A stretch of 64,000 nt of DNA from contig NZ_CALIMF010000005.1 in assembly GCF_938028735.1 (NCBI RefSeq), positions 1 to 64,000 of the forward strand, written 5' to 3'. Shown here piece by piece: positions 58,372 to 63,500 of this stretch. The position numbers were made by a program, and so were the translations under genes. The notes under the pieces were generated by a model, which saw nothing but the letters and a program-made list of their open reading frames with translations, searched no databases and had not been told where the DNA came from. Every line of letters starts with the position of its first letter. Positions within the stretch are counted from its first letter, which is position 1. This stretch comes from an uncultured Thermanaerothrix sp. (GTDB lineage Bacteria > Chloroflexota > Anaerolineae > Anaerolineales > Anaerolineaceae).

Positions 58372-58386
58372 TGCAAATGATTTGCA
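58372..58386 (+). promoter_or_regulatory. Fur-family operator (perfect 7-1-7 palindrome)
   Basis: TGCAAAT-G-ATTTGCA is a perfect 7-1-7 inverted repeat with the AATnATT centre typical of Fur/Zur/PerR boxes. It lies 14 bp upstream of the Fur-family ATG at 58401, so autorepression and control of the downstream Feo genes is likely. The metal is not decided by the sequence. Confidence 0.7.
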
Positions 58387-58400
58387 TTAAGGACGAGATA

Positions 58401-58895
58401 ATGGATTGGGTAACGCAAGTAACTGAACGTCTACGCGCGACCGGGGGGCGGATGACCGCCCAACGGCGCCTGATTCTGGAAACCCTCGCCCAATGCACCG
58501 ATCATCCCACCGCTGAAGAGATATACCAGCGTGCCCGCCAACGGGCCCCAGACCTTAATCTCTCGACGGTGTACCGCACCCTGCGCTGGCTGGAGGAACT
58601 GGGCGTGGTGGGTTCGCAGCGTTTTGAAGGCGAGCGTCCACAAGACCGCTTTGATCCGGCCATCTCGGCCAACCCCGATCATCATCATTTTCGCTGTCGC
58701 CTGTGCAACGCCATCATCGAATTCCCGGCGCCACTTTTGGATTTGCTCAAACGCGATTTCATTGCTCAGTACGGTGGCACCATTGAAAGCGCGTCGTTAA
58801 CCTTTTATGGGTTGTGTCAATCCTGCTTACAAAAGGTAGAAGCCTATGGCCCATTGTCATTCAACCCCGATGCCATCCTCAACCACCCACGCTGA
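58401..58895 (+). CDS. Fur-family metalloregulator
   Basis: A 164-residue repressor. N-terminal winged helix (about 15-85) includes MTAQRRLILETL and the recognition helix LNLSTVYRTLRWLEELGVV. The metal sites have DHHHFRCRLCNAIIEF (about 95-110), with the first CxxC, and LCQSCLQK (second CxxC) near residue 145. Cys pairs and the HHH block are full length, consistent with Fur or Zur. The ATG at 58401 has AAGGA upstream; longer frames run through the operator. The first gene of the Feo unit, it overlaps feoB by 50 bp. Confidence 0.92.
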   Translation: MDWVTQVTERLRATGGRMTAQRRLILETLAQCTDHPTAEEIYQRARQRAPDLNLSTVYRTLRWLEELGVVGSQRFEGERPQDRFDPAISANPDHHHFRCRLCNAIIEFPAPLLDLLKRDFIAQYGGTIESASLTFYGLCQSCLQKVEAYGPLSFNPDAILNHPR

Positions 58896-60828
58896 CCCCC
58901 CGCGCATTTTACTGGTTGGCAACCCCAATGTTGGAAAATCGGTGCTTTTTCATCGGCTAACCGGGCAATATGTGACTGTCTCCAATTACCCTGGCACCAC
59001 TGTAGAGGTTGCTCAGGGCAGTCTGCGCCATCGTCCGCATTGGTTAGTGATAGATACACCAGGAATCGTTACCTTCCCGGCCCGCAGCGAAGACGAAGAA
59101 GTAACCGTGCGTGCTCTACTCGATGACCATGTCGGAGCCGTTATCCAGGTAGGAGATGCAAAAAACCTGCAGCGCACTCTACACCTAACCTTACAACTAG
59201 CCGAACTCGGGTTACCCCTGGTGCTGGTGCTCAATATGCTGGATGAAGCCCAGGCCATCGGGGTTGAGCTAAACCTGGAGCCGCTCCGCCGCACCCTGGG
59301 TATCCCGGTAGTTACCACGATAGCCACGCGCGATCAGGGGGTGGATGAATTGCTCCACGCCCTGGAACGGGTTCAACCGGCCCTCTTTCACCCTACCTAT
59401 CCCCCAGAGATTGAAGAAGGCGTGCAAGCCATTCTACCCCTTCTCCCTCCGGCTACTATCTCCGCTCGGGGCTTGGCCTTGCTCTTCCTGAGTGGGGAAG
59501 CCAGCGTTGCCACCTGGTTACGTTCTCATTTGGATCCCGATACCTTCCAACGCCTGGAATACATCCGCCAGGACCTCCAAGCTCGCCTCGCAGAGCCCGT
59601 AGCCAGCGTGCTCCAACGCGCGCGCGAAAACGTCATCCGGGGGTGGTTTAACCAGGTCTGGCGCCAAGAACAACACCAACGCGAACCGCTTAATGTGCGC
59701 CTGGGACACTTAGCCACCCATCCCTTATGGGGCATTCCTATCCTGGCGCTGGTACTCTATGGACTTTACTGGTTCGTGGGCGTTTTTGGGGCCGGCACTT
59801 TGGTGGGATTCCTCGAAGGAACCCTCTTTGGCCAAATCATCAACCCCTGGGTAGCGAGCCACCTGGAACGTTGGATTCCTTGGCCGTTTGTCCAACAAAT
59901 GCTTGTCGGTGATTACGGCTTATGGACCATGGGTGCGACATACGCTTTGGCCCTGCTTTTACCGATTGTGGTTACCTTCTTTATTGCCTTTGGTATTCTC
60001 GAGGATTCAGGGTATCTGCCGCGTCTTGCGGTATTGACCAACCAGTTCTTTAGCCGCATCGGCCTAAACGGTCAGGCAGTGCTCCCCATGGTGCTTGGGC
60101 TGGGTTGCGTCACTATGGCAACGATAACCACACGTATCCTTAGCCGCCCCCGTGAGCGCATCTTGGTGACCTTCCTGCTCGCCTTGGCCATCCCCTGTTC
60201 AGCCCAATTGGGGGTTGTGATGGGGATGTTGGCAGGCATTTCATTCGGCGCCACCCTGATCTGGGCCGGCGTCGTGGTGGTGGTCTTGCTCATTGTGGGC
60301 TGGCTGGCCGCGCGGGTTTTACCCGGCGAACGCGCCCCTCTAATTGTAGAACTTCCACCCCTGCGCTGGCCGGTGCTCTCGAATGTACTGATCAAAACCC
60401 TGGCGCGCCTGGAATGGTACATCAAAGAAGCCGTGCCCTTATTCTTGCTAGGCACTTTCCTACTCTTCATGCTAGATTGGTTCCATCTTTTGCCCACGAT
60501 CATCCGCCTTGCCGAACCGGTGGTCACTCACTGGTTGGGTCTCCCACCTGAAGCAGCCGCTGCCTTCCTGGTGGGGTTCCTGCGCCGTGATTTTGCCGCC
60601 ACAAACCTCTTCGTCATGGAGTCCCGCGGCTTACTTTCCTCTGTTCAGGTAGTGGTTGCCATGGTAACCATTACCCTCTTCGTGCCCTGTATTGCCAGTG
60701 TGTTCATGATGATTAAGGAGCGCGGACTTAAGACCGCGCTGGGCATGCTGGCTTTCATTTTCCCCTTTGCGTTATTCGTGGGCGGCGTATTATACCGCCT
60801 GCTCACTCTAGTAGGTTGGCATGGCTAG
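58846..60828 (+). CDS. feoB: Ferrous iron transporter FeoB
   Basis: A 660-residue Fe2+ importer with a cytosolic G-protein domain and a membrane channel. G1 is GNPNVGKS (25-32), G2 TTVEVAQG, G3 DTPG (about 68-71), G4 NMLD (about 129-132). A helical spacer covers about 160-285, and membrane segments begin near residue 297, with FeoB Gate-type blocks GILEDSGYLPR, VLGLGCVTMATITTRIL and CSAQLGVVMGMLAG. Somewhat shorter than the 700-770 residue enterobacterial type. It overlaps the fur gene by 50 bp; the M1 start has AAGGTAG upstream. Confidence 0.95.
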   Translation: MAHCHSTPMPSSTTHADPPRILLVGNPNVGKSVLFHRLTGQYVTVSNYPGTTVEVAQGSLRHRPHWLVIDTPGIVTFPARSEDEEVTVRALLDDHVGAVIQVGDAKNLQRTLHLTLQLAELGLPLVLVLNMLDEAQAIGVELNLEPLRRTLGIPVVTTIATRDQGVDELLHALERVQPALFHPTYPPEIEEGVQAILPLLPPATISARGLALLFLSGEASVATWLRSHLDPDTFQRLEYIRQDLQARLAEPVASVLQRARENVIRGWFNQVWRQEQHQREPLNVRLGHLATHPLWGIPILALVLYGLYWFVGVFGAGTLVGFLEGTLFGQIINPWVASHLERWIPWPFVQQMLVGDYGLWTMGATYALALLLPIVVTFFIAFGILEDSGYLPRLAVLTNQFFSRIGLNGQAVLPMVLGLGCVTMATITTRILSRPRERILVTFLLALAIPCSAQLGVVMGMLAGISFGATLIWAGVVVVVLLIVGWLAARVLPGERAPLIVELPPLRWPVLSNVLIKTLARLEWYIKEAVPLFLLGTFLLFMLDWFHLLPTIIRLAEPVVTHWLGLPPEAAAAFLVGFLRRDFAATNLFVMESRGLLSSVQVVVAMVTITLFVPCIASVFMMIKERGLKTALGMLAFIFPFALFVGGVLYRLLTLVGWHG

Positions 60829-61066
60829 ATCGCCTACCCTACCCCTGACCGAGGAAACCTGGCTCACCTGCCCGGTTTGCGGCACACGCTTCCAGGCTGG
60901 AAAACACCCTGCCTGTGCACAGTGCCCTCTCCACGCCGGGTGTCAGATGGCATGTTGCCCAAATTGCGGCACCAGCGTGATTAACCCCCAGGCCTCCCGC
61001 TGGGCGCGCTGGGCCGAGCGCCTGCTTAAGCGTTCGCCGACTCCCCCCAAGGATACAACCCCGTGA
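60821..61066 (+). CDS. Small Cys-rich zinc-ribbon-like protein between FeoB and FeoA
   Basis: An 81-residue protein with four Cys-x2-Cys-type pairs: CPVCG (18-22), CAQC (33-36), a C-x3-CC group (42-47) and CPNC (47-50), a total of eight cysteines in 33 residues. This could bind two zinc ions or an Fe-S cluster. It is not the winged-helix FeoC nor the short Cys-rich FeoB-associated membrane peptide. It overlaps feoB by 8 bp and the FeoA gene region by 4 bp, so its role is probably coupled to iron uptake. Not recognised as a named family. Confidence 0.75.
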   Translation: MARSPTLPLTEETWLTCPVCGTRFQAGKHPACAQCPLHAGCQMACCPNCGTSVINPQASRWARWAERLLKRSPTPPKDTTP

Positions 61067-61083
61067 AAAGGAGATTACGCACC

Positions 61084-61416
61084 ATGCTTATCCCGCACCT
61101 CCGCTTCCACCGTGCCCGCTACCGTCACAGCCCGGGAAAGCCCTTTACTCGACCTACCCTTTGCCATGTTGCGCCTGGCCAAGAAGTAACCATCCTTGGC
61201 TTTGAAGCGCTCCCCTTGGATTACCAGCACTATTTACAGGCGTATGGCGTAATGCCTGGACGCACTGTGCGTGTGCTGGCCCAACGCCCGGTGACCATCA
61301 TTCAAGTTGAGCATACCGAGTTGGCTTTTGAACCGCAGATTGCCCGCTGTATCCTGGTTAAACCCAATAGCGGGAAAGGGGGGCCATTGAACGAAACCCA
61401 GACACCCTCCAGCTAG
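61084..61416 (+). CDS. FeoA-domain protein
   Basis: A 110-residue protein with an SH3-like FeoA domain at about 35-100: LCHVAPGQEVTILGF, LQAYGVMPGRTVRVLAQRP, IIQVEHTELAFEPQIARCILV. The N-terminal 30 residues are basic and unusual. The ATG at 61084 has AAAAGGAG 10 bp upstream; a GTG at 61063, overlapping the Cys-rich gene stop (GTGA), is an alternative that would add seven residues. It is the last gene of the Fur-FeoB unit and is convergent with the ABC permease by a 4-bp overlap. Confidence 0.88.
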   Translation: MLIPHLRFHRARYRHSPGKPFTRPTLCHVAPGQEVTILGFEALPLDYQHYLQAYGVMPGRTVRVLAQRPVTIIQVEHTELAFEPQIARCILVKPNSGKGGPLNETQTPSS

Positions 61417-62276
61417 ACGATGACGCGGGGATAGAGGCGCGCCGCAATGATGACCAGAACCAGCGTGGTCACGCTCATGACGGCGAAATCCACCCCTAAG
61501 GAAAAGGCCGGCGCACCGCCAGAAAGCATCAGCGCCCGCAGCGCATCCACAATGTAAGTCAGCGGATTGACCCGCGCCACCACCTGCAACCAGGCCGGCA
61601 TAATCGCAATGGGGTAAATGGCATTACTGGCAAAGAAGAGCGGCATGGTCAGCACCTGCCCGATGCCCATGAAACGCTCGCGGGTCTTAACCAAACAGGC
61701 AATAATGAGCGAGAAGAGCGAGAAATTGGCTGCGCCCAGGATCACTGCCACCGTAACCCCTAGCAAAGCCTGGGGCTGCCAGTTTAAATCCACCCCGAGC
61801 AACGCTGCCAGGGCGTAAATGATGATTGCTTGGGTCAAGCCGCGAATACCCGCTGAAAGGGCTTTACCGCTCACCAACGCCGCTCGTGGAGCCGGGCTGG
61901 CCATGATCTTGTGCAGAACACCTAAATCACGCTCCCAAATGACTGAAATGCCGTAGAAAATGGCAATAAACAGAACACTCTGCGCCAGAATACCCGGCGC
62001 CATGAAATCTAGATAGGAAAGATCCCCCGTAGGGATGGCCCGTACACGGGCAAACACCTGCCCAAAAATCAGCAGCCACAGCGCTGGTTGTACCGCTCGG
62101 GTGAAAAGTTCAGTGGGATCATGGCGTAACTTGCGCGCCTCCAATTCGGCAATGACCCAGGTCTTGTACAGAAACTCCCAAAGGGCTGCCCAGGGGCGTA
62201 AGGTCAGCGCAACCGGTGATGGGGAGGCAGTTTCACCCCAGACGACGGGCAACCCGTCGCGTTCGGACAGTTTCAC
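61413..62276 (-). CDS. ABC-2 exporter permease
   Basis: A 287-residue ABC-2 permease with six helices. The conserved region FASNAIYPIAIMPAWLQVVARVNPLTYIVDALRALML (about 205-241) is the signature. The start is placed at GTG 62276, where GGAGG lies 5 bp upstream within the ATPase gene; longer frames run further into that gene. It overlaps the ATPase gene by 44 bp. DrrB/NodJ-type exporters of this kind move drugs, lipids or polysaccharides. Confidence 0.85.
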   Translation of the reverse strand: MKLSERDGLPVVWGETASPSPVALTLRPWAALWEFLYKTWVIAELEARKLRHDPTELFTRAVQPALWLLIFGQVFARVRAIPTGDLSYLDFMAPGILAQSVLFIAIFYGISVIWERDLGVLHKIMASPAPRAALVSGKALSAGIRGLTQAIIIYALAALLGVDLNWQPQALLGVTVAVILGAANFSLFSLIIACLVKTRERFMGIGQVLTMPLFFASNAIYPIAIMPAWLQVVARVNPLTYIVDALRALMLSGGAPAFSLGVDFAVMSVTTLVLVIIAARLYPRVIV

Positions 62277-63030
62277 GGTAACCTCCAGTGGCGTTTTGAA
62301 GTTGGTTTCCAGTAAAGTGGATGAAAACCTCATCCAACGTAGCGTCGGGCTTGCCAATAGTAACCTTTAGAGCCTGAGGAGTATCGCACGCTACCAGCCG
62401 TCCCAGGTGCATAATACCAACCCGATCACATAACAGATCTGCCTCATCCATCAGATGGGTGGTCAATAGGATGGTGGTACCCAGATTCTGGCGGATTTGG
62501 CGAATATAATCCCATACGAGATGCCGCGCCACCGGATCCAAGCCCACCGTGGGTTCGTCAAGAAAGAGCACCCGCGGGCGATGGAGAATGGCTTGGGCAA
62601 TCTCCAGGCGGCGGATCATTCCCCCAGAGTATTCCCGCACCAAGCGATGAGCCACCTCGTGCAAACCCATAAATTCCAGCGCCTCGGTAATACGCCGCTC
62701 GCGCTCTGCGCGGGGAATATTGTAGAGTTTGGCTGCAATCAGCAGGTTTTCATAGCCGCTCAACGCGCCATCGGCGGAGATCAATTGAGGCACATAACCG
62801 ATGACCCGGCGCACCTGCGCCGCTTGATGCCGAATGTCAAAACCGGCGACCACGGCACTCCCCTCACTCGGCGGGAGCAGAGTCGTGAGCATCTTCAGGG
62901 ACGTACTCTTACCTGCACCATTGGGCCCTAACAACCCAAACACCTCCCCTTCGTGCAAGTTGAGGTTGAGGTGATCCACAGCCACCAGATTTCCATAGCG
63001 CCGCGTGAGATTTTGGGTCTGTAAGATCAT
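62233..63030 (-). CDS. ABC-2 exporter ATP-binding protein
   Basis: A 265-residue ATPase with Walker A GPNGAGKST (about 35-43), Q-loop VPQ, signature YSGGMIRRLEIAQ (about 135-147), Walker B RVLFLDEPTVGLD (about 153-165) and H-loop LLTTHLMDEADLLCD. The C-terminal TLDEVFIHFTG segment is typical of DrrA-like ATPases. It overlaps the MarR gene by 4 bp (ATGA), so the MarR, ATPase and permease genes are one operon under MarR control. Confidence 0.93.
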   Translation of the reverse strand: MILQTQNLTRRYGNLVAVDHLNLNLHEGEVFGLLGPNGAGKSTSLKMLTTLLPPSEGSAVVAGFDIRHQAAQVRRVIGYVPQLISADGALSGYENLLIAAKLYNIPRAERERRITEALEFMGLHEVAHRLVREYSGGMIRRLEIAQAILHRPRVLFLDEPTVGLDPVARHLVWDYIRQIRQNLGTTILLTTHLMDEADLLCDRVGIMHLGRLVACDTPQALKVTIGKPDATLDEVFIHFTGNQLQNATGGYRETVRTRRVARRLG

Positions 63031-63500
63031 GGTTGGCCTCTTTCACTGGGCAGCGGAGTCTCAGATGCTTCGGCGAGCACATGTCGGCGCAGAATCTGCA
63101 TGGCCTGAACCACACACTCCCGTTCGGCCGGGGATAAAGTGGTCAGCAAGCCGAGAAAATAGGCCTGGGTTTGCGCCTGGGCAGCCACCAGGATGGCCTC
63201 TCCCGCCTGGGTCAGGCGCAAACGCACACGGCGACGATCATGCGCATCACCGACCCGCTCTACCCAGCCCATGCGGACAAGTTTATCTACCAACGCGGTG
63301 GTGGTCGGGCGGGTCAGTCCCAGGTGCTCTGCCAAATCGGAAATCGAGGCCATCTGCCGACGGATGAAGATCAACGCCCGAAACTGCGGCACGCTCATGC
63401 GCGGATCACGGTGACGGCGCATCTGGCTGCGAATAACCCGGCTAACTCCCATCACCACTTCCAAAACTTCCTGTACACATTGCTCAAGATCGCTAGTCAT
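63027..63500 (-). CDS. MarR-family transcriptional regulator
   Basis: A 157-residue winged-helix repressor. The recognition core is SISDLAEHLGLTRPTTTALVDKLVRMGWVERVGDAHDRRRVRLRLTQAGEAIL (about residues 51-104), including the wing DRRRVRLRL. It is the first gene of the exporter operon, and its ATG lies inside the right half of the palindromic operator, which points to autorepression relieved by a ligand that is perhaps the exporter substrate. Confidence 0.93.
   Translation of the reverse strand: MTSDLEQCVQEVLEVVMGVSRVIRSQMRRHRDPRMSVPQFRALIFIRRQMASISDLAEHLGLTRPTTTALVDKLVRMGWVERVGDAHDRRRVRLRLTQAGEAILVAAQAQTQAYFLGLLTTLSPAERECVVQAMQILRRHVLAEASETPLPSERGQP

Follow-up and report, generated by a model that had tools for sequence, protein, structure and literature searches.

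What does the small gene lying directly downstream of feoB, in the position of FeoC, encode in this Feo operon, and is its product a partner of FeoB? The stretch of 64,000 nucleotides that was analysed (the window) carries on the forward strand, in this order, a Fur-family gene, feoB, the small gene, and feoA. The Fur-family regulator (58401..58895, starting at ATG 58401) overlaps the start of feoB and matched PF01475 with 92 bits (cut-off 23.1), while every model in an NCBIfam scan stayed below its cut-off. The feoB gene (58846..60828) matched TIGR00437 with 383.7 bits (cut-off 315.65), and its product belongs to a variant FeoB clade (SH-aLRT 100). For feoA (61084..61416; PF04023, 40.1 bits, cut-off 23), the likely start is ATG 61084, which follows AAAAGGAG, and the reading frame can also start at GTG 61063. 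The host genome encodes a single FeoB at E ≤ 1e-30; a search of the same genome found no FeoC at E ≤ 0.001 and no PF12669 match over the cut-off (best 15.1 bits vs 27).

A perfect 15-bp palindrome, TGCAAATGATTTGCA (7-1-7; 58372..58386), ends 14 bases upstream of the Fur-family ATG and is a candidate operator of that gene. It is the sole exact copy in the 2.62-Mb genome; the two copies with one mismatch both sit inside ORFs, and no regulon emerged from the palindrome. No sigma-70-type promoter was found at the palindrome. Behind feoA, on the reverse strand (61413–63500), lie genes that we named from their ORFs as an ABC-2 type permease, an ATPase, and a MarR-like regulator.

Translation of the ORF at 60821..61066 (forward strand) confirmed that the small gene encodes an 81-residue protein with eight cysteines within 33 residues (positions 17, 20, 32, 35, 41, 45, 46, and 49). 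At least eight cysteines per 33-residue stretch were reached in only 1 of 20,000 base shuffles of the ORF. The reading frame is kept in many genomes, so that the gene is not a chance frame. The gene had been described as overlapping both of its neighbours. The overlap with the feoB stop (8 bp) stood, whereas the overlap with feoA (4 bp) depends on GTG 61063 as the feoA start; ATG 61084 is likelier, and thus a short gap probably separates the two genes.

The small protein is a member of a new, unnamed family of probable FeoB accessory proteins that is tied mainly to one FeoB clade. In a literature search that mostly left subscription journals aside, no description of the family or of its pairing with a FeoB motif was found. 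A phmmer search of 301 Chloroflexota genomes matched 54 of them at E ≤ 0.01. All 17 of the best non-self loci (L005–L021, E ≤ 1.7e-5) lie behind feoB, and of the 12 weaker loci fetched (L022–L033) only L027 does. A family profile returned 20 matches in 19 genomes at E ≤ 5.5e-19, the next match being at 2.3e-7. Scanning genome contigs with the cysteine pattern gave at least 118 stretches, 87 of those listed being supported by the profile; the stretches without such support look like chance frames. Among the matches listed, with L072 set aside as a spurious frame, 125 profile-supported ones were reduced to 102 distinct members by leaving out repeat fetches (L034–L051), the window copy (L001), two further repeats (L078 and L101), one identical protein, and a locus without feoB whose domain lies within a long frame (L052).

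The original prediction had proposed a search for the cysteine pattern next to feoAB. Of the 102 distinct members listed, 83 adjoin feoB, comprising 18/18 in the Chloroflexota sample, 59/60 in other bacteria, and 6/24 in archaea. Among the bacterial members listed, 77 of 78 are feoB-linked, and the sole exception, L086, is an FeoA fusion that starts 7 bases from the edge of its contig. In 76 of the 83 feoB-linked members listed, the domain starts between −13 and +45 nt from the feoB stop. These members, among those listed, come from more than a dozen phyla, namely Actinomycetota, Armatimonadota, Bacillota, Calditrichota, Bipolaricaulota, Firestoneibacteriota, Omnitrophota, Chloroflexota, Elusimicrobiota, Myxococcota, Nitrospinota, Nitrospirota, Pseudomonadota, Baldrarchaeota, Odinarchaeota, and Methanobacteriota, of which those represented by a single member are less sure because many loci are metagenome bins. 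A search of plasmids for relatives of the L153 protein found none. The proposal of a new FeoB partner is partly supported, by a very strong linkage to feoB, and has to be amended in that the protein does not stand alone but is one member of a broad family.

A match to a characterised zinc-ribbon family with an unrelated context, which by the original prediction would have counted against it, did not emerge; yet an uncharacterised archaeal subfamily has the same cysteine pattern and no feoB nearby. It accounts for most of the 18 of 24 listed archaeal members that lack a neighbouring feoB (L064, L138, L142, L154, L160, L162, and L179 among them), with a DISYGRAFACSGCPSS-type sequence, other neighbours, and the same cysteine spacing. 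In L115, L118, and L137, a frame near the archaeal small gene resembles Trm56. These archaeal members indicate that neither the fold nor the cysteine pattern is in itself bound to FeoB, and that the domain is not FeoB-specific everywhere.

Which FeoB proteins have the small gene as a neighbour was followed at 94 Chloroflexota FeoB loci, a census taken from an FeoB search among the matches listed, with weaker and partial matches partly fetched. The accessory gene was the small gene at 20 of these listed loci, FeoC at 36, and a PF12669-type peptide at 3 (that of L185 assigned by eye), and none was recognised at 35. FeoC was labelled with a profile built on a Chloroflexota ORF, which also finds E. 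coli FeoC; PF09012 itself was over its cut-off in 18 of 121 genomes. In a quick tree of 93 rows from the listed FeoB matches (L011 being left out for its short FeoB), with long branches and no bootstrap, one clade (SH-aLRT 100) consisted of carriers of the small gene in 18/18 rows, against 0/57 rows on the FeoC/PF12669 side and 1/18 in the rest, the one being L019. The carrier label needed 2 changes on this tree, compared with 17.6 in shuffles. Pairing with one FeoB clade is therefore exclusive among the listed matches of the Chloroflexota census, with one exception, and the small gene stands in for FeoC and the PF12669 peptide in step with the FeoB clade. A wider tree including other phyla agreed, with 39 carriers in one clade and the FeoB of E. 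coli grouped on the side of FeoC; it cannot test the pairing, since its additional loci had been obtained by way of the small gene.

Three genomes (G015, G030, and G081) each have at least one FeoC-type and one carrier-type feoB locus, and G081 has four FeoB loci (L009, L196, L211, and L219), two of them carriers, one of FeoC type, and one with no recognised partner. The 35 of 94 listed census loci at which no accessory gene was recognised within about 450 nt (among L186–L218 and L256–L292) may in some cases carry further small partners that have escaped recognition.

The carrier clade also differs in two FeoB motifs. At gate 1, the window FeoB reads GLGCVTMAT (60097..60123, forward strand; canonical GFGCNVPA), and the clade in general reads GC[D/V/G]TMAT where other FeoBs read GCNVPA or similar. 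The second motif, PCSAQ (60193..60207, forward strand), is preceded by one extra residue in the clade and corresponds to PC.AR in other FeoBs. Among the listed census matches, both motifs occurred in 18/19 carrier rows vs 0/74 others. The 46 carriers from other phyla comprised 36 with both motifs, 3 with PCSAQ only, and 7 of the GCNVPA type, these seven being six archaea and L224, a locus identical with L019. In Pseudomonas aeruginosa FeoB, the conserved membrane cysteines have been the subject of study (PMC4847171). We take the GC of the gate motif to include one of them.

When the first motif was searched alone in 298 and 294 genomes of two classes, 44 loci came up, spread over 24 and 19 genomes, respectively. 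The small gene was present at 39 of them (including L303, where the small-gene profile also flagged FeoC and which was counted as a carrier), a contig end cuts off 4, and one locus, L330, is without it. With the window locus and 15 loci seen earlier removed, 24 fresh loci that are not truncated remained, and 23 of these had the small gene, as the motif predicted. At L330, the variant-motif FeoB is followed instead by a frame that is presumably FTR1-like, a name taken from its REGIE-type motif.

The cysteine-rich core of the small protein (residues 17–49; 60869..60967, forward strand) has two outer CxxC pairs, 17/20 and 46/49, which alignments and predicted hairpins mark as zinc-ribbon-like, and between them a central loop, C-x2-C-P-x4-C (residues 32–41; 60914..60943, forward strand), with the cysteine spacing of FeoC by sequence comparison. 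In a 19-member alignment (A1) that was not selected by pattern, C17, C20, C35, C46, and C49 are invariant and C-x2-C-x5-C is kept in 16/19 rows. Seven cysteines of the family are near constant, and C45 occurs in 30 of the members of an 82-member alignment; cysteine conservation in alignments A2 and A3 is inflated because L063–L180 were fetched by the cysteine pattern. Two AlphaFold2 models, whose confidence is modest (pTM 0.51 and 0.48; mean pLDDT 76.4 and 79.6), both place predicted strands as hairpins around the outer CxxC pairs, with the C-x2-C-P-x4-C loop between them. Four structure comparisons turned up only weak similarity (Z ≤ 3.4), to folds of the zinc-ribbon-like kind and to other small folds that bind zinc, and Foldseek on the predicted models gave no match at E ≤ 0.001.

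The FeoC of E. coli assembles a [4Fe-4S] cluster and depends on its cysteines for full function, as PMC8749426 reports. Given this and the shared C-x2-C-x5-C, an iron-responsive loop is most likely the working part of the small protein, and the CxxCPx4C loop probably either detects iron or an Fe-S cluster or passes it on, and in this way sets the gating of FeoB/FeoA. We see about even chances that the protein serves a distinct type of FeoB as a cytosolic accessory subunit with a zinc ribbon and tunes FeoB/FeoA in dependence on iron or a cluster; its fold, its metals, its contact with FeoB or FeoA, and the direction of regulation are what we infer here. Such a subunit would fill the role of FeoC or the PF12669 peptide for its type of FeoB. 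The outer pairs, C17/C20 and C46/C49, would coordinate a structural zinc as part of a zinc-ribbon fold, and the loop C32-x2-C35-P-x4-C41, joined by C45 in about a third of members, would bind Fe2+ or an oxygen-labile Fe-S cluster. With plentiful iron or an intact cluster, the small protein and FeoA could then act on the G-protein domain or cytosolic gate of FeoB, so that the opening or stability of FeoB would be tuned. Since only 30 of the 82 aligned members have C45, the middle site is often left with three cysteines and might take up a second zinc or no metal at all. Also counting against this reading are the 18 of 24 listed archaeal members with no feoB nearby, L330, with the motif and no gene, L019, with the gene behind an FeoB of another clade, the six archaeal carriers with an ordinary FeoB gate motif, and the weakness of the fold matches.

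The relation of the small gene to FeoA bears on other readings. Among the 83 feoB-linked members listed, the Cys domain is fused to an FeoA domain in 11, an FeoA domain starts less than 200 nt away in 17 and 200–600 nt downstream in 45, and none was seen in the locus in 10. The fusions, together with weak profile and fold matches that fall mostly on zinc ribbons and other small zinc domains, would also suit a purely structural zinc adaptor with one or two sites, bridging FeoA, or the FeoA domain of the DtxR-type repressor, to FeoB without sensing iron. We regard this as rather unlikely, since C-x2-C-P-x4-C is kept at the FeoC spacing though four cysteines suffice for one zinc ribbon. In the 200–600 nt class, both proteins tested (L153 and L116) consist of Fe_dep_repr_C plus FeoA and are thus of DtxR type, and L009 joins the Cys domain, Fe_dep_repr_C, and FeoA in a single chain. 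This direct repressor fusion, the frequency of that class, and the Fur-family gene with which the window operon begins speak for a co-factor whose target is not the transporter but the operon's DtxR-type or Fur-type repressor, which it would modulate. We nevertheless consider such a co-factor very unlikely: no DNA-binding domain was seen alongside where plain feoA follows or where the Cys domain is fused to FeoA of the plain kind (L010, L075, and L135), and the pairing tracks the FeoB clade. The near one-to-one pairing with FeoBs reading GC[D/V]TMAT and PCSAQ could instead reflect an iron acceptor or chaperone that catches Fe2+ with its loop as the ion exits the variant FeoB pore and delivers it to the cytosol, which would fit the changed gate motifs; no particular iron client was found linked to the gene, and where a curated cut-off is shown, the rubredoxin-like similarity falls short of it, so that this proposal appears improbable to us.

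Going beyond the tuning subunit that we prefer, it is conceivable, though we lean against it, that these loci form a separate and widespread type of Feo system, in which an FeoB with a rebuilt gate (GC[D/V]TMAT, PCSAQ) works only with its own zinc-ribbon/iron-loop subunit. If so, the type might have a different metal preference or gating logic, and FeoC, PF12669, and the present family would be three unrelated scaffolds, each of which supplies FeoB with an iron-sensing loop of the CxxC-x5-C type. The role of the third Feo component, and why many FeoB systems seem to be without FeoC, is posed as an open question in PMC8749426. A third scaffold that replaces FeoC or PF12669 alongside an FeoB clade and its gate residues is a natural experiment for testing whether the cysteine loop is what the scaffolds have in common and whether the FeoB gate motif is the partner of that loop. 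The scaffold is also a lead to function for an unannotated gene found, among the members listed, in more than a dozen phyla.

How the family relates to known ones was assessed with curated models. In Pfam at E ≤ 10, the window protein gave only sub-threshold zinc-ribbon-like and other weak matches (best PF17032, 19.5 bits vs 28.9), and NCBIfam likewise gave only weak matches below threshold. Scans of the 19- and 82-member alignments, for which the tables give E-values rather than cut-offs for members beyond the first, found only scattered weak zinc-ribbon families, and of four members scanned singly, three had only sub-threshold matches and one had none at E ≤ 0.01. With no model over its cut-off for the window protein and the four members, filing under FeoC, PF12669, rubredoxin, or a curated zinc-ribbon family was rejected. 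PDB sequence matches to C2H2 fingers were set aside as they follow the CxxCG knuckle pattern, and PF0385 (2k5c) was dropped as a solved relative because the profile match spans only 13 positions.

Like zinc ribbons such as Zn_ribbon_15, Zn_ribbon_3, DZR_2, and the LysW-like type, the small protein has two CxxC knuckles, which the models of modest confidence set on predicted hairpins; it differs in scoring below all curated cut-offs (window protein), in its extra CxxCPx4C loop, and in its feoB context. Rubredoxin shares the CxxCG ... CPxCG knuckles (profile match at E 3.5e-5), whereas nothing in the aligned rubredoxins corresponds to the middle cysteines, and the 20 families in the window protein's listing include no rubredoxin model. 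L135 matched RUBY_RBDX with 21.9 bits (cut-off 26.5), and a rubredoxin-type Pfam match of L153 is also below the cut-off where one is shown.

The protein had been held to resemble neither FeoC nor the Cys-rich FeoB-associated peptide, which is true of the profiles, PF09012 and PF12669 both being unmatched at E ≤ 10, but not of the loop with its FeoC spacing. The PF12669 peptide is likewise small, Cys-rich, and in the same gene slot, as described in PMC8749426; the small protein, by contrast, is without a hydrophobic segment by inspection, and the PF12669-type peptides among the listed census matches follow other FeoBs. The same source describes in Betaproteobacteria a small cysteine-rich FeoC-like oligopeptide. 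FeoC (PF09012) is likewise a small cytosolic protein whose gene comes just after feoB, and CKSCPEGKAC in the E. coli protein has the spacing of C-x2-C-P-x4-C. Against the E. coli FeoC motif C-x4-C-x2-C-x5-C given in PMC8749426, the small protein has C-x2-C-x5-C with the proline of E. coli FeoC, its first cysteine not standing at x4. Among FeoC-like sequences with at least three cysteines, C-x2-C-x5-C occurs in 20 of 28, and in 10 of 28 it has proline or serine following the second cysteine. Unlike FeoC, which is a winged helix, the small protein has two CxxCG knuckles, and its gene follows a different FeoB clade; the short cysteine motif that the two share may be convergent.
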